From positions 19,613 through 55,942 of the IMG/VR virus record IMGVR_UViG_3300029448_000048: DNA of 36,330 nt. One strand, given 5' to 3'. The translations under genes and the position numbers were made by a program. The stretch is from a virus. The notes beneath the pieces were generated by a model, which was given only the letters and a program-made list of their open reading frames with translations, ran no database searches and was not told the DNA's origin. Shown piece by piece: positions 1-13,967 of the stretch (its first letter is position 1; the number at the start of each line of letters is the position of its first letter).

Positions 1-555
<555 letters not shown>

Positions 556-807: not shown

Positions 808-1779
808 CTACTTGGTTACACCAATTAATTCTAACTCTTCATCTTTATATTGTATTCTTGCTTGATTATCTAAAACTTTGTATAAAAGAAAAGGACCTGT
901 TTTGTGATTTACAACACCTGTATAGACACTCTGTCCTTTTTCTATTGCTAGACCAAACTGCATCCAGTGATTAAAGTTTTTTGAGGAAATATCTGGTCCA
1001 TTATGTACGAACATTTCATCTCTACAGAATGCTCTCCAGTAAAATATCAGATAGTTATGTTTAGGTTCTTTTTTGACAGCTTCGGATATGTCGAAAGTGT
1101 TTTGTATTCCATAACCCTCAGGCCACTTATTAAAATACATTTCGTATAAACCATTATCTTTAACTGGTGTATCATCGATTCTTGTAAATCTTCCTGCTCT
1201 GATTGGTGAGAAACATGAGTCTTTCATTCCATCGAGATTAATAGGATAATCTTTTATAAATTCAATCTCTTTGTCTAACTCTGGAAAATAACATGTCGAC
1301 CAGTATATGTCCAGTCTATCAGGTATTGAAATACAGTTTGGGTATTTTTCGACCAGTTGAGCATATTCATAGGTCATCGTCCGTTCAACTCCGAAATCAC
1401 CTAAACACTCCGACACACACACATCAAAATAATCTTCATTTTGAGGAAGTTCAGATACATCAGTAACTACTTTCCAATTATAGTGTTCGTTATGGTTGGT
1501 TGAAACCATGTCACGAATAATACTATGTAAACTTTGCATCTCTTCAACAAACCAAACTTCTTTTGCACCACACATGAGTGCATATGTACCTAAGATTCCA
1601 GAACCGGCACCGAAGTCAACAACGATTTTATCCTTACAATGCTTTTTAATCTGTTTAAAAAAGGCGGTTGCTCTTAGTCGATCTTTCAACATACACATAT
1701 GTGATTCAAGTTGTTGGTATTCACCACTAAAATGTGAAAAAGCATGTTTACTAAATACTGTATTTTCATAGACACTCAT
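808..1779 (-). CDS. PRMT-type protein arginine methyltransferase, 323 aa
   Basis: This is a SAM-dependent methyltransferase with the full signature of the protein arginine methyltransferase family, rare in bacteria and phages. Visible in order: an N-terminal helix region like the PRMT YFxxY segment (FSHFSGEYQQL, ending HMCMLKDRLR); SAM motif I VVDFGAGSGILG at 53-64; the acidic ribose-binding turn FVEE at 77-80; the double-E loop SECLGDFGVE at 123-132 (E124 and E132, one residue shorter than in PRMT1); IPDRLDIY after it, like the IFPDRATLY region; and a THW-like loop NHW at 270-272. The ATG at 1779 is chosen over an in-frame TTG at 1794 because a TATAAT box sits 6 nt before the ATG and no ribosome site is visible. 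It would methylate arginine guanidino groups, perhaps on host or virion proteins; the substrate is unknown. Confidence 0.85.
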   Translation of the reverse strand: MSVYENTVFSKHAFSHFSGEYQQLESHMCMLKDRLRATAFFKQIKKHCKDKIVVDFGAGSGILGTYALMCGAKEVWFVEEMQSLHSIIRDMVSTNHNEHYNWKVVTDVSELPQNEDYFDVCVSECLGDFGVERTMTYEYAQLVEKYPNCISIPDRLDIYWSTCYFPELDKEIEFIKDYPINLDGMKDSCFSPIRAGRFTRIDDTPVKDNGLYEMYFNKWPEGYGIQNTFDISEAVKKEPKHNYLIFYWRAFCRDEMFVHNGPDISSKNFNHWMQFGLAIEKGQSVYTGVVNHKTGPFLLYKVLDNQARIQYKDEELELIGVTK

Positions 1780-1785
1780 ACGACT

Positions 1786-1791
1786 ATTATA
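1786..1791 (-). promoter_or_regulatory. -10 box 6 nt before the PRMT start
   Basis: TATAAT is followed by AGTCGT and the ATG at 1779. If used as a sigma70-type -10, RNA would begin at or next to the start codon, giving a leaderless message; no Shine-Dalgarno sequence is present. The box follows directly on the terminator at 1811-1841, consistent with a fresh transcription unit. Confidence 0.5.
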
Positions 1792-1810
1792 CAAACTGTT
1801 TTATATTTTT

Positions 1811-2231: not shown

Positions 2232-3098
2232 TTAAAAGGTGATTTCATCTAATGTCTCAAGTATCTCTTTCGACTTGTTTTTAAGATTAGACTTAACTTG
2301 TGACGACTCTTTGATCAGGTCGCTGTCTGTTCCGGCAATCTCTTTCTTGATCAACTCGGCAACATCGTTTAACTTCTTATCTTCTAGAATGTTTAAACTC
2401 ACAACTGAATCAGTCAACTCAGACAGGTTTTGTAACGCTCGCTTGTATCGACTTCCTTCGGTCTCAGTTTTCTTTAAGATGCCTTCAACAGACTTCTTGA
2501 GATTTGCTACCAACTCACCTTGAGCGGACTTCAAATTCGACTCATACTCACGAATTGTTTCTGCCTTGATCGTCTCAAGTTCGGCATCGGTCAAACCTTC
2601 AATTCGAAGGTCAGTCATATCGGTGATAGGTTCGAAGAACAACACCGCATTGAATCGGTCCATAATGTCTTCTTTCTCAGGAAAAGAATCTGAACGGTAA
2701 AGATCACCTAATCGTCTTTGAGCCATCTCTTGAAGAATTTCATAGTTCATGTAAATTTCATCATAAACATAGGAACGAAACGCCTCTACTCGCTTTTGAA
2801 TCTCTTTGTTCAAAGCGGGATAATCTTTGGCGGGCATAATACGATAACCACCGTCTTGGAAAGGAAGACTAGCTTTCGCAACCGCTTTACGAATACCGAT
2901 TGAATGCTCACGAATCTCTTTCTGAACCGATTTCGGAAACATACTCACACCGACATTAATCGCATCTGCATCGGCAGAGTTATTACTGGCCAGTTCGTAC
3001 TGACCATCAGTTGACTTCACATTACCGTTGAAAGATGAAACTCGAATGCGAGTCTTAACTAACTTTTTGATAACAGAAGTAGCATCAATTTTACTCAT
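2232..3098 (-). CDS. DUF3150-like coiled-coil partner of the AAA/VWA pair, 288 aa
   Basis: The protein is mainly helical and charged, without membrane segments. Its second half (about residues 165-288) is rich in K/E heptad-like stretches such as LVANLKKSVEGILKKTE and LKNKSKEILETLDEI. Length, helical character and position next to a MoxR-type ATPase and a VWA metallopeptidase-like gene recall DUF3150 proteins, which accompany such pairs in some phages and integrative elements; this is from memory of gene context, not a search. The start at 3098 is preferred over the upstream ATG at 3170: AGAGG lies 5 nt before it, and the upstream ATG falls inside the predicted promoter (3159-3187). It may be an adaptor or substrate-binding subunit of the complex. 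Confidence 0.65.
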   Translation of the reverse strand: MSKIDATSVIKKLVKTRIRVSSFNGNVKSTDGQYELASNNSADADAINVGVSMFPKSVQKEIREHSIGIRKAVAKASLPFQDGGYRIMPAKDYPALNKEIQKRVEAFRSYVYDEIYMNYEILQEMAQRRLGDLYRSDSFPEKEDIMDRFNAVLFFEPITDMTDLRIEGLTDAELETIKAETIREYESNLKSAQGELVANLKKSVEGILKKTETEGSRYKRALQNLSELTDSVVSLNILEDKKLNDVAELIKKEIAGTDSDLIKESSQVKSNLKNKSKEILETLDEITF

Positions 3099-3158
3099 TT
3101 TAACCTCTTTCTTTTTTTGAATTTTCAAATTTAATTTCTCACTCATCGTTATATTAGG

Positions 3159-3187
3159 AATATAGGACATTTCCTTCGGAATGTCAA
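3159..3187 (-). promoter_or_regulatory. Sigma70-type promoter of the DUF3150-like gene
   Basis: TTGACA (3182-3187), a 17-nt spacer and TATATT (3159-3164) form a near-consensus promoter overlapping the last codons of the ATPase gene. The spacer contains the small inverted repeat TTCC-GAA-GGAA. RNA would start near 3152, giving a leader of about 54 nt before the ATG at 3098. Confidence 0.75.
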
Positions 3188-4239
3188 TTACTTATTTCAG
3201 CTAATTTCGATAATTTTGTGTAGCTTGGACAAACACATGACTCTGGGTTTTTCTCAGACATCATCGCTAAGATCGTTGCCTTGTATTCAGCAGGTAGTCT
3301 CATCGCATACTGATAAACCTTCTCACAAAGGTCGGTGTCATCTTTGGCATACTCAACCAAGCCAGTAGTCACGGCAAACAATACTGAAGGCTCGTAATCG
3401 ATTCTGGCATTATCAGGGTCAGCAACGATTTGGTCAGGAGTTTCCGCTTCTTTGTAAAGGTCGATAAACGCCTTGTACTGAATCGAAGCGGGAACACCGA
3501 TTAGACCAGCCATCACTGGAAGCATAATGTCCTTGGTTTCAAAGTTGAAACCTTTGTTGATTGAAGTGACAACTCGGTCAACGAAGTCGAGTGAACGCCT
3601 TGTGGCGAAACTTTGGTCTTCAAAATCTTCATCAGCTTCTAACACTTGGTGGCCAGCAAACTTGTCGAATGCCCGTCTTTCGGGTGAGATACCATTCTCA
3701 CTTGCCCACTTGTCATAAGACTCATTATCACCGGAAATGTACAGCATACATAAACGGTTGATGGCAGCCTTAGATAAAGGAGTTGTATACATGTCACTCG
3801 AACCGTTCATAGCACCGACAAAGACAACTTTATCCGAAATCTTTTCGTTAGCAATCTTACGACCAAGTAAAATGTTTAGAATCACGTTCTGTAACATCTG
3901 GTCACAACGGTCAAGTTCATCAAAGAAAATCACCGTCAAAGGGTCATCTTCTTTCGCATCTCTCTCAAGAGGAATCCATTCAGCACAAACTTCATGGACA
4001 CGACCTTCAACTTCTTTAGGAAGAGAGAAGTTTGAAATATCCATCTGAGACAGAATACGAGTCTCAAGGACAGCATTGATACCGTTCTTGTTTAACGCAC
4101 CCACAAAATCTTCGATAGCGGTAGTTTTACCACAACCAACAGGACCGACAAGTACTGGTGGAATCTTAGATTTCATCAAAACAGCGATTGCCCGTTTGGC
4201 TTGCTGTGGTGTGATTTTCATAACTTTACTTTCACTCAT
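3184..4239 (-). CDS. MoxR/CobS-type AAA+ ATPase, 351 aa
   Basis: This AAA+ ATPase is of the MoxR/CobS class, ring-forming chaperone-like motors that act with VWA-domain partners to remodel proteins or insert metals. Walker A is GPVGCGKTT (about 32-40), Walker B VIFFDELDR (about 104-112), and sensor 1 lies in VVFVGAMNGSSD, followed by an arginine-containing SKAAINRLCML segment that fits the sensor-2/arginine-finger side. The C-terminal 150 residues are helical and end with two cysteines (ESCVCPSY). The start has GAGGTTAT upstream and its own promoter at 4271-4299. Its neighbours, a VWA metallopeptidase-like gene before it and a coiled-coil gene after it, point to a three-part complex. The substrate is unknown. 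Confidence 0.85.
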   Translation of the reverse strand: MSESKVMKITPQQAKRAIAVLMKSKIPPVLVGPVGCGKTTAIEDFVGALNKNGINAVLETRILSQMDISNFSLPKEVEGRVHEVCAEWIPLERDAKEDDPLTVIFFDELDRCDQMLQNVILNILLGRKIANEKISDKVVFVGAMNGSSDMYTTPLSKAAINRLCMLYISGDNESYDKWASENGISPERRAFDKFAGHQVLEADEDFEDQSFATRRSLDFVDRVVTSINKGFNFETKDIMLPVMAGLIGVPASIQYKAFIDLYKEAETPDQIVADPDNARIDYEPSVLFAVTTGLVEYAKDDTDLCEKVYQYAMRLPAEYKATILAMMSEKNPESCVCPSYTKLSKLAEISN

Positions 4240-4270
4240 AATTTTTTATAACCTCACTTTCAATACCTGG

Positions 4271-4299
4271 AATATATCCTATTTTAATAAAATTGTCAA
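4271..4299 (-). promoter_or_regulatory. Sigma70-type promoter of the AAA+ ATPase gene
   Basis: TTGACA (4294-4299), a 17-nt spacer ending in ATAGGA, and TATATT (4271-4276) match the promoter of the next gene in box sequence and spacing. The -10 lies inside the near-palindrome GGATATATTCC. RNA would start near 4264. Confidence 0.75.
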
Positions 4300-4307
4300 C
4301 AACTATT

Positions 4308-5636
4308 TTACTTAACATGAATTGTTTTTCCCACCTCACCTTTGAGCCTTGAGGTTGACAACCACAGACAGTCAATACCTTTTAGGTCTTTTTTGAAAGA
4401 CTTAGGACCTGGGTCATCTTGGTGCCAGTCCCACTCAAATTCGAGATCAGTCATTACGACCATTAACTTTGGTTTTTGTTTGAGGGTTTTAAGTTTGTCA
4501 ACAACACATTGAAACTTAGTACCACCTCGACCAACCATTTCAACCTCTTCAAGATTTGTATTTTTCGTGATTGTTCTTTCATCACGAACCTCTGTATCGA
4601 ACTGCCATAAATCGTAACTATCTAATGACATCAAGGCATTTTGACCTTCCGTTAAGGTCGCATCAAAATCATCTTGTCGCATAGAGCAGGATGTATCCAT
4701 AACAAATAGAATATCACCTGGTGTTTTTACTTGTCGAGTAGGCATAATAAAATTACTACGAACTCGTCTCGAAGGAACTAACCAGTTATAACCAGCTTTT
4801 TTCTGAGACGACAAATAGTTTCGAAGAAGAACCTTCCAGTTTACTTCACCTTTTCCTGTTAGTTCGTTTATCTTTTCTTTTATAGAACTTGGAACATGGT
4901 CACCGGATTCTTGAGCGGCCGCTATCGCCTGCATTATCATTGAGTTAGCTTCTTGTTCAGCCTCTTCTAAATCATCAGGTTCACAAGCTTCAAATTCACC
5001 AAAAGTATTTGTAGTATCCGAACCTACTTCAGTATCATCAGAACTTTCTTCGTCAGAACTTTCACTATCACTACCTGAAGAGTCATCACTTGAATCATCG
5101 GAGGAATCACCGTTTGAACTCGATGAATCGCCTGGGTCAGTTGCTACTGAATATTCTTCTGTCTCATTTTCTTGAGACTCATCTGACTGATTTTCTTTTT
5201 CCTCTTCTTTTTTCTTTTGAATTAAATCGTAATAATACTCAGCACTCTTACCGAAAGGATAGTCGCTGTAATCACCTCTACCGGGAAGAAGAGCATCTTC
5301 TGGGAAACCGTCTAAATCAAAAATCTCACAGTTGAGTGCTAGGTCGGCCGCCACATTATAATCACGGTGATTATAGTTTTTGATTTTTGAACCTCTTAAG
5401 TGGTGCTTAAACACAAGGTGTAAAATCTCATGCATCAAAATAACTTTTGTGGTTGAAAACTTTAGAGAACTTGCAAAATCTGGATTGTAAAGCAACTCTT
5501 TTGAGTTGATTGCAAACGTATTGATCTTTTTAGTCTCTACTAACTTGAGTCGTAATAAAATACTAGCGTAGAACGGCTCTGTCTTAATTAGTGACATCCT
5601 CGCTTCTTTTACAATGTCTTTAATGTCGAAACTCAT
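4308..5636 (-). CDS. Metallopeptidase-like VWA protein (DUF2201 type), 442 aa
   Basis: This two-domain protein is of the kind paired with MoxR ATPases. The N-terminal half has a zincin-type HEILH motif (about residues 69-73 from this start) inside VILMHEILHLVFKHH, as in DUF2201_N putative metallopeptidases. A long acidic Ser/Asp/Glu linker (about 140-225) follows, then a VWA-like domain with a MIDAS DTSCS (about 314-318), GGTKF and MTDLEFEW carrying the other metal-site residues. The start at 5636 is chosen because a promoter -10 (5659-5664) overlaps the earlier in-frame ATG at 5660, and GAGAGAT lies just before 5636; starting at 5660 would add 8 residues. It probably acts with the ATPase next door, either as a real protease or as a metal-dependent adaptor. 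Confidence 0.85.
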   Translation of the reverse strand: MSFDIKDIVKEARMSLIKTEPFYASILLRLKLVETKKINTFAINSKELLYNPDFASSLKFSTTKVILMHEILHLVFKHHLRGSKIKNYNHRDYNVAADLALNCEIFDLDGFPEDALLPGRGDYSDYPFGKSAEYYYDLIQKKKEEEKENQSDESQENETEEYSVATDPGDSSSSNGDSSDDSSDDSSGSDSESSDEESSDDTEVGSDTTNTFGEFEACEPDDLEEAEQEANSMIMQAIAAAQESGDHVPSSIKEKINELTGKGEVNWKVLLRNYLSSQKKAGYNWLVPSRRVRSNFIMPTRQVKTPGDILFVMDTSCSMRQDDFDATLTEGQNALMSLDSYDLWQFDTEVRDERTITKNTNLEEVEMVGRGGTKFQCVVDKLKTLKQKPKLMVVMTDLEFEWDWHQDDPGPKSFKKDLKGIDCLWLSTSRLKGEVGKTIHVK

Positions 5637-5658
5637 ATCTCTCTCACTTTCTACAGAC

Positions 5659-5687
5659 ATCTTATCCTAGATATGGCGGAAAGTCAA
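5659..5687 (-). promoter_or_regulatory. Sigma70-type promoter of the VWA gene
   Basis: TTGACT (5682-5687), a 17-nt spacer starting TTCCG and ending CTAGGA, and TAAGAT (5659-5664) repeat the layout seen before the other two genes of the trio. The -10 is weaker. The box begins 3 bases after the stop of the glycosyltransferase-like gene. Confidence 0.55.
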
Positions 5688-7617: not shown

Positions 7618-8058
7618 CTATTTAACCTTGATCTCACGAGGTTTCTTACCTTCTGGTATGATTCTCTCAAGAGATACAGTTAAAAGTCCGTCTTTGAGTT
7701 CAGCATCCTTTACTTCGACATCTTCTGCCAATGTGAAAGTTCTTGTAAACTTTCTTTTACTAATGCCTTGATGAACTAGACTTTCCTTTTTATCATCTGT
7801 CCATTTTTCATGATTAGATGATATAGTTAGTTCGTTATCTGCATACTTAACACTAATATCATTCTTACCAAAACCAGCCAATGCGAGTTGAATGTCATAG
7901 GTAAAATCACCTGTCTTTTCAATGTTATATGGTGGATAGTTTCCTGATTGTGTTACTTCTTTGTTTTGATACATCTGCTCGAAATGGTCAAAGACACTAT
8001 CGAAGCCGATTGTGAGTGGTCTTAATTGATTAAAGACCGATGCATAATTTGCTGTCAT
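7618..8058 (-). CDS. Small heat-shock protein, Hsp20/IbpA type, 146 aa
   Basis: This ATP-independent holdase keeps unfolding proteins soluble. It reads like IbpA/IbpB along its whole length: LTIGFDSVFDHFEQM at the N-terminus, YPPYNIEKTGDFTYDIQLALAGF opening the alpha-crystallin domain, HQGISKRKFTRTFTLAEDVEV in the middle, and DGLLTVSLERIIPEGKKPREIKVK at the end, including the conserved G-L-L and a C-terminal I-x-V tail (IKVK). Start 8058 has AAGGAGAAAAAT before it; a longer in-frame start at 8088 lacks one. Hsp20 is common in marine T4-like phages, where it may aid particle assembly. It has a structured leader with two promoter-like boxes. Confidence 0.95.
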   Translation of the reverse strand: MTANYASVFNQLRPLTIGFDSVFDHFEQMYQNKEVTQSGNYPPYNIEKTGDFTYDIQLALAGFGKNDISVKYADNELTISSNHEKWTDDKKESLVHQGISKRKFTRTFTLAEDVEVKDAELKDGLLTVSLERIIPEGKKPREIKVK

Positions 8059-8140
8059 ATTTTTCTCCTTATTAAGCAAGTTAAACAATGAAACCCATTA
8101 GGCGTTTCAATGTGCAATTATATTTACACCCTATTATACT
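8059..8140 (-). promoter_or_regulatory. hsp20 leader: two promoter boxes and a hairpin
   Basis: From upstream, the minus strand shows GTATAATAG (TATAAT, about 8133-8138), then the T4-late-like 8-mer TGTAAATA (8121-8128), then a hairpin (CATTGAAAC with GTTTCATTG, one mismatch, 9-nt loop), then AAGGAG 6 nt before the ATG. Early and late transcripts could both feed hsp20. The hairpin does not cover the ribosome site as drawn, so an RNA thermometer is not supported without folding. Confidence 0.5.
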
Positions 8141-10546: not shown

Positions 10547-10792
10547 TTAATCATATTTTATCAAAGGATTTATGGGTAGCACTGGATTTTTTACAGTATA
10601 TATGTCACCATTATCTAGTTCAATAATATCAATCGATGCATATAAAATACCTTCATTATCCTGTGTAGGGTCTATGTCTCTTGTAGCCGGATTCTTTCCG
10701 AAGTTAGTATACTTAGTACCCTGAATGGTAATAAATGATTCTCCTGGACTTAGTGCCTCCACTTTTTCCCACCATGTATTTTCTTCACTCAT
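10547..10792 (-). CDS. Hypothetical protein, 81 aa
   Basis: This unrecognised small soluble protein looks mostly beta (ESFITIQGTKYTNFG, GILYASIDIIELDNGDIYTVKNPVLP). The start at 10792 is chosen over 10804 because GAGGAAC lies just before it. It overlaps the last codons of the subtilase gene by 8 nt, so it is translated from the same message. Confidence 0.6.
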   Translation of the reverse strand: MSEENTWWEKVEALSPGESFITIQGTKYTNFGKNPATRDIDPTQDNEGILYASIDIIELDNGDIYTVKNPVLPINPLIKYD

Positions 10793-13700
10793 TATGTTCC
10801 TCATTCAGTATGTTAATAAATTCAAAAGAACTCGCTCTTGAATTTCTATATTTATTATTTAAAAACAAAACAGCCGATGTGGCTTTTGTGTTTACTGGTT
10901 GAGGATAAGCATCGTTACCTTGTAAAAAGCTGTTCATACCTTCTCGTTCGGGTGTTTCCATGAAAGGTACGGTTGCAGATGTTACTATATCAAGTCTATT
11001 TCCAAAATTACCATTAAACCAGGGATAATATCTTCTATTAGTTGTATTAACTCCATAGTTTCCTTCACCTCTACAACCGTTCATGATAATACCTGAGATA
11101 GCGTCATTTAGTAGACTAGCTTTTGCTTGAACGGGTGTATATTCTGGGTGTGCTTGTAATTTCAAGGCTAAAACACCAGCAACTTGAGGTGAGGCCATTG
11201 ATGTTCCTCCTATTTTATGTATCTTAAAATTAGTATCTAATGGATATGTATTCCTTCCTCGAACATATTGCTCAGACAAAAGAAGAGATGGTTCTGTAGG
11301 GAAAGAACTCTGTATGTTTTCACCAAACGCATATATATCAATACCTGAACCATAGTTACTAAAATGGGAAGCCATGTATTTTGCACCTGATAGTATAGAA
11401 GAGGTTTCAACCATTGAGGCTCCGCTTGCTAAAGAACCTTGGGTTATTCTGATTGGTTCACCGCTTCCTGATCTATGATTTGGTATTGCATGATTCAGAT
11501 AAGGTCTATATAATAAATTTTGCATTCTATCTCGACTGAGTAAAGGTATGGCAGATCGTCCTGCACTAAGGGTATTATAATGACCACTTACAATACCGGT
11601 TATTTCTGGGTATCCAGAATGTGGTAAGTATCGAACTGTTTGTCCTCTAGCACCTGCACGATCTCCGTTTGAACCTTTTGACCAGCTATATTCATACCTC
11701 ATTCCTGTTGATACTGGTTGTGAACTAAGTCCATGATGGTAAACGGTCATATCCATGATCATCTCATTAAATGACGATTCTCTTAGTGAACCAACTGTAA
11801 AATGTCTTTGTTGTTTTCCACCTGTAGTTCTATCACCGGGTGAATTACCACGAGTATAATGTTGAGCATCATATCCTTGATACTGAGGTAGATGTAAAAA
11901 ATATGCGGCAGAATTCGGAACCGAAGACAAAGGTCCTGATGATAAAGGCGGAACTGAGGGTAAAGCAGATGGTGGAGCACCGATGTAATTACCCCAATTT
12001 GCGTGTTTTGGTGATGCTATATATCTTCTATCATTACCGGCCGCAACCACAACATGAATACCCTCGTCTATCATCTCACCAACATCTTGATCAAAGGCGT
12101 TGATTCTCACTGATCCTACTGGAGTAAGTAGTGTGTTGGTTGATTCTGAACTATAAGGTAGGGGCGCCATAGGAAAAGCATAATTTCTTTCAAATCCGAA
12201 TCTAGAGCGAATTGATTTTTCCGATTCATGAGTTTGAAATCTAAATGTTTCAGCGGAACCTTTTACTCCTTGAGATAGTAAAAAGGTCTCGTTTGTACTG
12301 GCTTTGTAGCCAACCATACCACTATAAGGGTACTGATTCCATGCTTGTCCATTACCAGCACTCTGCTGTGTAACACGACCGCTAAGAATAGGATCAAAAT
12401 CGTAATTACCATAAGAGGCACTTAAAGGTAAAGGAATTATATTAGTCGCAGAAAGTGCCGTACTAAGAACTGACGGTGGTGTGCTTGTTGGATGAGAACC
12501 TGTACCTGATATTGTATCATAATACATTGTCCCTCCAAATTTTATATTTGTGAGTCTTCTTCTACCAAATCTAGGATTATAAGCAGGTACATTCCATATC
12601 CATGGAATATGTTCATCTGTATTTAAATAGTCTCTCGCATTCAATACAGCAAATTTTCTCCACTCGGAATCATCTGCTGATGAAGATTTAAATTGTGCTA
12701 TACCGCTTGGATATAAAGCGGATAAGGGACCTTTTGCTAATGTTCCTGACATAGGTATAAAGCCTGCGCCTGACGAGGGTATGGCACTTGTATAATAAAC
12801 ATCATTTAATCTACTCAATGCGGAAAGTGGTGATTCCGCTTTTATATAACCACCGTGTCCAATAATTTTTCCGTCACCGTTTCTTGGATACCAGGAAGAA
12901 CCCCAACTCATATTAACAATCGTTGGTCTTTTATATCCCGTTTTAGGATCAATCGGCTTATTTCTATGCCATAGTTTTATTAAGTCAAATGAATCGTTAA
13001 GTGATATACATTCAGATGCTGGTGTGCCTGTAGCACCACCAACGGCTATTTTGTGTGCATAGATTCTGGCATTTTTAGCCCAGCCATATGTTTTACCGGC
13101 TACGGTACCTGCAACATGTGTTCCGTGTCCATGTCTATCTGTATAATGTGCGGAAGGCATTTGTGTAGATAAAGGAAAGGAAGAGGCCGCAGTTCCTATA
13201 GCTGATGTATGATACCAGTTTATTTGCTGAAGTCTTGATACACCATTTTCGTCAAAAAATTCTGGATGATCGGCTTGTATACCTGAGTCTTGAATTACTA
13301 CATCTACACCTGTTCCATCCATTGAAAATCGATACTCATCAAATTCTGAAAATGCTTGTTGTTGCATTCCAAAAGCATATCCAGTAGAAGATGTTGCTTT
13401 ACCGGATGCGGGTCCACCGGAAATAATAGGTCTTAAATAGCACCATTTAGGTAATCCGGTTAAGGCTATGTTATATGGTTCTGCTGTTCCTTTTTCTCGT
13501 TCGAAGGCATCTCTAATAAATGAATTACCAGTAACCGGTATATATGTGTGTAAAATTTTAGCAAAGTCTTTATGTCCAGATGTTCTCTCACTTCCTGTTC
13601 CTCTTCCATTTCGACCTACACTACCTATAGTACCGTCTTCGTTTATTGTGAGATTAACGGAGACCTGTCTGTTTAATTTTATAAAAGGACCAGATTGAAC

Positions 13701-13967
13701 TGAGTTTAAATGAAGTATTACATGTGGGTCTTTCTCTGGCGGTATTGTAACACTTTGAACTCTATGGTCTTTTAAAAGACACTTAGCCTCTTCTTCGGTC
13801 AAATCATAGTGTGTGTTTACTTTAGAAGCTACTCTTGGATTAATTACGTCTACACATCTTGAAGGTACTGATGATCCACCACCTTCTCTACACATTTCTT
13901 TGCAGAATTCGTCATGATCTTCACCTCTAACTAATGTTACAATGTACTCTTTTCTTTGAGTAGACAT
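10785..13967 (-). CDS. Giant subtilisin-family (S8) serine protease, 1060 aa
   Basis: This serine protease has the full subtilase catalytic set: Asp227 in VVIQDSGIQADHPE, His281 in DRHGHGTHVAGTVAG, oxyanion-hole Asn645 in VVAAGNDRR and Ser933 in GGTSMASPQVAG. Residues 1-80 (KEYIVTLVRG... LLKDHRVQSVTIPPE) look like an I9-type pro-domain with the ending that abuts subtilase domains. The very long insertions (about 360-620 and 660-900) are Ser/Gly/Tyr-rich. No signal peptide is visible, which fits a virion or lysate protein rather than a secreted one. AGGAGG before the ATG suggests strong translation. Its place beside a fibre-like gene suggests a structural or tail-associated protease. S8 proteases are known from other marine phages. 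Confidence 0.93.
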   Translation of the reverse strand: MSTQRKEYIVTLVRGEDHDEFCKEMCREGGGSSVPSRCVDVINPRVASKVNTHYDLTEEEAKCLLKDHRVQSVTIPPEKDPHVILHLNSVQSGPFIKLNRQVSVNLTINEDGTIGSVGRNGRGTGSERTSGHKDFAKILHTYIPVTGNSFIRDAFEREKGTAEPYNIALTGLPKWCYLRPIISGGPASGKATSSTGYAFGMQQQAFSEFDEYRFSMDGTGVDVVIQDSGIQADHPEFFDENGVSRLQQINWYHTSAIGTAASSFPLSTQMPSAHYTDRHGHGTHVAGTVAGKTYGWAKNARIYAHKIAVGGATGTPASECISLNDSFDLIKLWHRNKPIDPKTGYKRPTIVNMSWGSSWYPRNGDGKIIGHGGYIKAESPLSALSRLNDVYYTSAIPSSGAGFIPMSGTLAKGPLSALYPSGIAQFKSSSADDSEWRKFAVLNARDYLNTDEHIPWIWNVPAYNPRFGRRRLTNIKFGGTMYYDTISGTGSHPTSTPPSVLSTALSATNIIPLPLSASYGNYDFDPILSGRVTQQSAGNGQAWNQYPYSGMVGYKASTNETFLLSQGVKGSAETFRFQTHESEKSIRSRFGFERNYAFPMAPLPYSSESTNTLLTPVGSVRINAFDQDVGEMIDEGIHVVVAAGNDRRYIASPKHANWGNYIGAPPSALPSVPPLSSGPLSSVPNSAAYFLHLPQYQGYDAQHYTRGNSPGDRTTGGKQQRHFTVGSLRESSFNEMIMDMTVYHHGLSSQPVSTGMRYEYSWSKGSNGDRAGARGQTVRYLPHSGYPEITGIVSGHYNTLSAGRSAIPLLSRDRMQNLLYRPYLNHAIPNHRSGSGEPIRITQGSLASGASMVETSSILSGAKYMASHFSNYGSGIDIYAFGENIQSSFPTEPSLLLSEQYVRGRNTYPLDTNFKIHKIGGTSMASPQVAGVLALKLQAHPEYTPVQAKASLLNDAISGIIMNGCRGEGNYGVNTTNRRYYPWFNGNFGNRLDIVTSATVPFMETPEREGMNSFLQGNDAYPQPVNTKATSAVLFLNNKYRNSRASSFEFINILNEEHNE

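Follow-up and report, generated by a model that had tools for sequence, protein, structure and literature searches.

MoxR/VWA machines are common, and targets are known for few of them. In the NorQ-NorD and CbbQ-CbbO systems, a MoxR-class AAA+ ATPase is paired with a VWA partner, and dedicated enzyme targets are known. These systems have two components and no DUF3150-like protein; those of NorQD (PMC13036017) and CbbQO (PMC4660213) served as our templates for mechanism. Three-component arrangements also exist. In the VMAP-type MoxR-vWA ternary systems, the third component is VMAP. Canonical DUF3150 loci, in turn, encode a CbbQ-like AAA protein, DUF3150 and a CobT-like HExxH-VWA protein.

In phages, the closest described systems have two parts. 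Escherichia phage N4 gp24/gp25 and their counterparts in related schitoviruses (PHROG 1297 and 1314) comprise an AAA+ ATPase and a DUF2201_N plus DUF2201-VWA protein, in the order ATPase then VWA; in N4, both are middle genes (PMC4193335). Group 2.2 jumbo phages carry a MoxR-vWA pair in which the VWA protein has an N-terminal metallopeptidase domain, with a proposed role in virion assembly (Iyer et al. 2021, PMC7824862); the available portion of that paper mentions no third gene. The preliminary description of the locus analysed here did not mention these phage pairs.

Here we describe a trio from a marine virus of bacteria, in which a MoxR-class ATPase and a VWA protein of the N4 families, with about 23-30% protein identity to the N4 and schitovirus proteins, are joined by a DUF3150-like protein. 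Since AAA/VWA pairs have been described in phages before, what is added here is the third gene.

Organization and domain content of the locus

The window, which is the whole 36,330-nt stretch of DNA analysed, contains three consecutive minus-strand ORFs (4308-5660, 3184-4239 and 2232-3170), confirming the three-gene set of the preliminary description. Transcription runs first through the gene for a VWA protein with an N-terminal HExxH/DUF2201 domain, then through that for a MoxR-type AAA+ ATPase and last through that for a predominantly helical protein. The likely true starts are at 5636 for the VWA protein (gene at 4308..5636), 4239 for the ATPase (3184..4239) and 3098 for the helical protein (2232..3098, 288 aa). 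Starts 5636 and 3098 were preferred because the longer ORF starts, 5660 and 3170, lie inside promoter hexamers or spacers; 5636 is also the end coordinate given in the preliminary description. In addition, L004, a relative with 89% identity, does not preserve the stretch that the 3170 start would add to the helical protein. Purifying selection acts on all three genes, with dN/dS values against L004 of 0.115 (VWA), 0.044 (AAA) and 0.096 (DUF3150-like). These low values, together with the finding of the same three genes in each other's company elsewhere, indicate that the trio is not a chance assembly.

The VWA protein matched the Pfam families DUF2201_N (PF13203; E 2.3e-30, 106.6 bits against a cut-off of 23.2) and DUF2201 (PF09967; E 5.7e-10, 39.8 bits against a cut-off of 26.4), as well as phrog_1314 (E 1.5e-79), which is the N4 gp25 family. 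Its putative metallopeptidase domain carries an HEILH motif at residues 77-81 of the 450-aa ORF (5418..5432, minus strand). Among 10 homologues, H77, E78 and H81 are invariant, as are N102, D106 and N110 downstream, and D106 may be a metal ligand of the HExxH domain. Fold matches of the predicted model of this domain to selecase and jannalysin were weak (E 0.02-0.03), as was the sequence match to selecase (E 0.054). An acidic Ser/Asp/Glu-rich linker (4956..5219, minus strand), which is of low complexity, modelled with low confidence and variable among homologues, joins this domain to the VWA domain. The MIDAS of the latter begins with DTSCS at residues 322-326 (4683..4697, minus strand) and is completed by T381 and D405; D322, S324, S326, T381 and D405 are all invariant in the homologues. 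In a single-chain model of moderate quality, the top-ranked fold match of the VWA domain was that of NorD (Z 10.8); pTM values were 0.47 and 0.46 for the DUF3150-like and VWA proteins, respectively. The earlier assignment of a VWA domain and a metallopeptidase-like domain to this protein was thus borne out by the Pfam matches, the invariant residues and the NorD-like fold.

The second protein exceeded the Pfam cut-offs for AAA (4.4e-8) and AAA_5 (5.9e-6), and matched phrog_1297 (E 1.3e-50). Its AAA+ motif set is complete, comprising Walker A, Walker B, sensor 1, arginine finger and sensor 2. Walker A (GPVGCGKT; 4123..4146, minus strand) contains G35 and K38, and Walker B (VIFFDE, within VIFFDELD; 3916..3933, minus strand) contains F105 and D107; these residues, sensor-1 N145, Arg162 and Arg215 are invariant among 12 homologues. 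In a profile search of solved structures, midasin ranked first by far (4.9e-31) and NorQ appeared further down (1.5e-6). On this sequence comparison, the protein is placed in the MoxR-class midasin/NorQ/CbbQ group, in agreement with its previous designation as a MoxR-type ATPase.

The third protein and its association with the pair

The third protein, predicted to be mostly helical, had been described as DUF3150-like. It gave no significant Pfam match, including to DUF3150 (PF11348), and the same was true for DUF3150 of a protein annotated as such in MinM2, which it matched by tblastn (2e-8). A Cupriavidus relative scored 22.1 bits against DUF3150, under the cut-off of 24.9. In profile-profile comparison using hhalign, the third-protein profile matched true DUF3150 with a probability of 94.7 and an E-value of 5.6e-8, as compared to 0.28 for a reversed control and 0.074 for the best among 100 column shuffles. 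An iterated profile also reached true DUF3150 (8e-6), and the predicted model matched the fold of a phage DUF3150 protein in BFVD (E 1.6e-13). Judged by profile-profile comparison and predicted fold, the third protein is a remote DUF3150 relative. We call it DUF3150-like rather than a DUF3150 member because the Pfam cut-off was not reached, so that the earlier designation stands for remote homology and not for family membership. Foldseek and HMMER searches of solved structures returned helical-bundle matches only, none of them a convincing relative, and no Pfam VMAP model matched. The canonical DUF3150 loci share the three-part design, with AAA and VWA proteins from other subfamilies (AAA_5 with CbbQ_C; CobT/CobT_C) and a remotely homologous third protein. 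DUF3150 is a family of unknown function, of which we found no mention in the literature searched; the trio supplies a context for it.

Conserved co-occurrence of the three genes was evident in IMG/VR. Among 91 third-gene loci with enough flanking sequence, 81 contained both the AAA and VWA genes and none contained just one, with gene orders AGV, GAV and AVG (G, third gene) all represented. The remaining 10 had a different AAA+ ATPase, and neither a MoxR-type AAA nor a DUF2201-VWA gene was detected anywhere in those records. That an AAA+ ATPase is present in all 10 exceptions suggests that the third protein is a partner of AAA+ proteins. In the first 19 loci checked, both genes accompanied the third, save for two loci that each lacked one partner at a contig end. 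Narrow queries (the first genome scan and early viral scans) gave few or no relatives; broader alignments gave more than 100. Distance-matrix correlations across 125 unique loci were 0.72-0.78, as compared to null maxima of 0.17-0.20, indicating co-inheritance. Together, co-occurrence and co-inheritance rule out that the third gene is a chance neighbour.

The trio occurs in viruses, on bacterial chromosomes and on conjugative plasmids, consistent with the earlier statement that AAA-DUF3150-VWA sets are found on mobile elements, which also holds around true DUF3150. All six plasmids checked carried it. The plasmid trios (Burkholderia, Cupriavidus, Paraburkholderia, Rhodovastum, Simplicispira) have all three families adjacent or a few kb apart in the order AAA-third gene-VWA, some adjoining type IV secretion genes, and their third proteins are 18-21% identical to that of the window. 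The movement of a fixed trio between plasmids and phages implies that the third protein is part of the machine. Not every AAA/VWA machine requires it, since most phages with the pair seem to do without it: the VWA protein was found in 306 records and the third protein in 3. Searches that included the surroundings of the AAA/VWA pair found no third gene in N4, CRP-7, SCTP-2, PA5oct, G or LUZ7; for N4 and LUZ7, unlike the window phage, this held anywhere in the genome.

Promoter-like sites, proposed mechanism and alternatives

A pattern scan placed a sigma-70-type promoter-like site before each gene, on the minus strand: TTGACT-N17-TAAGAT for the VWA gene (5659..5687), and TTGACA-N17-TATATT for both the AAA gene (4271..4299) and the DUF3150-like gene (3159..3187). 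The VWA-gene hexamers are identical in L004; at the other two sites the hexamers are kept and spacer bases differ. The strict pattern matched five times in the window against 2.24 expected (at least five in 6 of 100 shuffles), and three of the five matches sit directly before the trio genes. At a loose threshold, counts over the whole record were no higher than in random controls. No late motif, TATAAATA, was found just upstream of the trio genes. The three conserved promoter-like sites suggest early expression, which lends indirect support to the previous proposal that the module acts early.

We propose, with a probability of roughly 0.6, that the trio encodes a single MoxR/VWA-type machine that uses ATP to remodel proteins, is inherited as a unit and acts early on a target of importance to both plasmids and phages. 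Complex formation, force transmission, the adaptor role, proteolysis, timing and target are what we infer. By analogy with NorQ-NorD and CbbQ-CbbO, a hexamer of the AAA+ protein would grip the VWA domain and the C-terminus of the VWA protein. ATP hydrolysis would rotate the VWA domain, and the acidic linker would carry the strain to the HExxH domain at the N-terminus and to the ligand bound at the MIDAS. The DUF3150-like protein, as an AAA+ partner, might present or anchor the target, which could be clipped by the HExxH domain once exposed. The phage probably produces the trio early using host RNA polymerase, and the target would be an establishment, counter-defence or competition factor for plasmids and phages rather than a virion part.

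In an unlikely alternative, the target is a virion part: the AAA/VWA pair would act as an assembly chaperone that helps to form the particle, and the HExxH domain as a maturation protease that processes structural proteins. This reading draws on the jumbo-phage proposal of Iyer and colleagues and the archaeal-virus precedent given with it (PMC7824862), on the note "ESI-MS/MS" in the PA5oct ATPase record, on four RPP1 virion proteins encoded near gp24/gp25 homologues (PMC4193335), and on GroEL and Hsp20 encoded by the window phage. However, plasmids carry the same trio and make no virions, the three genes have sigma-70-type sites rather than the late motif, the N4 pair is expressed from middle genes, and viral trios have neighbours of varied kinds, among them genes for DNA polymerase, primase, terminase and endonucleases. 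Somewhat less likely again is a self-contained, moron-like cassette that harms rival phages or plasmids. A separate promoter for each gene and the spread over conjugative plasmids, chromosomes and viruses would fit such a unit, but no PADLOC defence family matched beyond weak coiled-coil or P-loop hits, and the AAA/VWA pair is kept among the middle genes of N4-type phages, unlike optional cargo. Very improbable is a role in metal insertion, as in a cobalt or magnesium chelatase or in NorQD. NorD is the closest fold to the VWA domain, and canonical DUF3150 loci include CobT-like VWA proteins, but the cobaltochelatase profile match was weak, the subunit model scoring 23.9 bits against a cut-off of 779.45, and the neighbouring genes examined included none recognisable as a tetrapyrrole or metalloenzyme gene.

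Extending the remodelling-machine proposal, we tentatively suggest that lytic phages, prophages and conjugative plasmids share an undescribed three-component AAA+/VWA-peptidase/DUF3150-like system by which one and the same host or rival protein is remodelled and cleaved, and that the DUF3150-like subunit may be a general AAA+ adaptor, switched in some phages to another AAA+ ATPase, one whose core is permuted. The trio provides a genetic handle on the target and makes the function of N4 gp24/gp25, an old question, directly testable. Many records, and PHROG 1314, label gp25 and its relatives as HNH endonucleases; we rejected this label because Pfam detects DUF2201_N and DUF2201 only.

The trio and its promoter-like sites

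The window (bases 19613-55942 of a 55,942-base IMG/VR virus record) contains T4-type genes for a UvsX-like recombinase, a DnaB-type helicase, a single-strand binding protein and a tail sheath stabiliser. The trio is transcribed from the minus strand in the order VWA gene (start 5636), AAA gene (start 4239) and third gene (start 3098). This order is identical in L004, a related viral locus with 87-95% protein identity to the window, and all three genes are under purifying selection between the two loci (dN/dS 0.115 for VWA, 0.044 for AAA and 0.096 for the third gene). Directly upstream of each trio gene is a promoter-like site, TTGAC(A/T)-17 bases-TANNNT. These three are among five such sites in the window, as compared to an expectation of 2.24, and five were reached in 6 of 100 shuffles. 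Relative to L004, changes were found at 0 of 36 hexamer positions of the trio sites and at 10 of 51 spacer positions (p = 0.003). The late motif TATAAATA was not found just upstream of the trio genes. As judged from sequence, the trio sites fit early transcription by the host polymerase.

In the VWA protein, an acidic linker joins an N-terminal DUF2201_N domain, a putative metallopeptidase (E 2.3e-30), to a VWA-like DUF2201 domain (E 5.7e-10); each domain exceeds its Pfam cut-off. Its HExxH, the N...D...N pattern downstream of it and all MIDAS residues were invariant in ten divergent homologues. The VWA domain of the predicted model best matched that of NorD (Z 10.8, 2.7 A over 126 residues), with further VWA domains ranking equally, and the N-terminal domain gave weak matches only, to the small archaeal metallopeptidases selecase and jannalysin. 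In the AAA+ ATPase, the Walker A, Walker B, sensor 1 and arginine-finger positions were kept across twelve homologues. By profile, the solved structures nearest to this protein are midasin (4.9e-31) and, lower in the match list among many AAA+ proteins, NorQ (1.5e-6), so that it belongs with the MoxR/midasin group.

The third protein had no fitting family in Pfam, PHROG or NCBIfam. Its relatives include plasmid proteins and a Synechococcus phage MinM2 protein that carries a DUF3150 annotation. Profile-profile alignment of 17 relatives with six genuine DUF3150 proteins gave an E value of 5.6e-8, as compared to 0.28 for a reversed profile and 0.074 for the best of 100 column shuffles. Predicted phage DUF3150 proteins also matched its predicted fold (mean pLDDT 75, pTM 0.47) over their full length (E 1.6e-13). 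Because the protein falls below the Pfam DUF3150 cut-off, we refer to it as DUF3150-like.

Partners of the third gene

In MinM2, all six plasmids examined and two more viral and eight bacterial contigs, AAA and VWA genes were found within ~5 kb of the third gene, the exceptions being contig ends. Two broader scans of IMG/VR yielded 153 third-gene loci, which include duplicates of one contig, and partners were counted in the 91 that are flanked on both sides by 4.5 kb or more. Both partners were present in 81 of these, neither in 10 and a single partner in none. Gene orders on one strand were AAA-third-VWA, third-AAA-VWA and AAA-VWA-third; thus, the linkage survives rearrangement. Distance correlations among 125 unique trios were 0.72-0.78 (null maxima 0.17-0.20). 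Since the sample was anchored on the third gene, it shows what this gene needs and not how often it accompanies AAA/VWA pairs; among phage records, a VWA-protein relative was present in 306 and the third gene in just 3, which represent a single phage type.

Neither the MoxR-type AAA nor the DUF2201-VWA protein was matched anywhere in the ten exception records, in a search run without a positive control, so that this empty result is weak. A different AAA+ ATPase of ~500 residues lies upstream in all ten, although in two of them it is represented by shorter open reading frames alone. Seven of the eight full-length proteins (L205:2274-3824, L199:3375-4865, L211:2268-3854, L197:3522-5018, L203:1440-3095, L198:4271-5809 and L200:3530-5053) have the Walker B block (VIIFMDEIEKA) before Walker A; the eighth, L195:4131-5621, has the usual motif order, with the same block at its normal position. 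The AAA+ core thus appears to be permuted in seven ATPases adjoining DUF3150-like genes. In all 91 loci, the third gene is thus accompanied by an AAA+ ATPase of one type or the other, suggesting that the third protein is an AAA+ partner or adaptor.

Genuine DUF3150 genes of bacterial genomes lie between or beside genes for a CbbQ-like AAA protein and a CobT-like VWA protein that has both HExxH and MIDAS. The AAA / DUF3150 / HExxH-VWA design therefore has at least two versions; the window trio shares it but is built from different subfamilies.

Possible mechanism and genomic surroundings

In NorQD, ATP turnover drives rotation of the VWA domain and stretching of the linker to the N-terminal domain of the VWA protein (PMC13036017); in CbbQO, the target is bound at the MIDAS through an acidic residue (PMC4660213). 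The window VWA protein is organised as in NorQD: its C-terminus is conserved, and a long linker connects the VWA domain with an N-terminal domain, here a putative peptidase. Going beyond these papers and the domain layout, we infer a mechanism in which the linker would be pulled, as in NorQD, the N-terminal domain and MIDAS would act on a target, and the DUF3150-like protein might serve as adaptor or anchor.

The AAA/VWA-peptidase pair has already been described in N4-like phages and in jumbo phages, with a proposed role in virion assembly; such a role does not sit easily with the presence of the whole trio on plasmids. The literature searched, the coverage of which was incomplete and leaves novelty unproven, contained neither the third gene as a constant partner nor its DUF3150 link, its spread over phages and plasmids or the parallel CobT-type trio. 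N4 gp25, the VWA protein of phage N4, its relatives in RefSeq phage records (e.g. NC_008720, NC_013691, NC_071039) and PHROG 1314 are widely labelled 'HNH endonuclease'. We rejected this label for gp25, which had strong Pfam scores for DUF2201_N and DUF2201 and no HNH match.

In plasmid loci L022, L024 and L025, type IV secretion genes (VirB11-like ATPase, VirB2/3/4) are located downstream of the trio, a hint that the trio may have a role in conjugation or establishment. Near the window trio is a GroEL chaperonin gene (1-555, minus strand, continuing at L006:18464-19699), whose recorded sequence is broken by unknown bases; its L006 part matched phrog_5725 (E 2.9e-108). Between GroEL and the trio, 808-1794 (minus) encodes a methyltransferase-like protein (Pfam Cons_hypoth95, 6.9e-7; weak PRMT5 match) with a diverged counterpart at L004:9390-10373. 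Also on the minus strand are a phage Hsp20 small heat-shock protein (7618-8088; phrog_432, E 4.2e-43) and a 1060-aa protein (10785-13967) that matches phage protease family phrog_3677 (E 3.2e-29) and phrog_9158.
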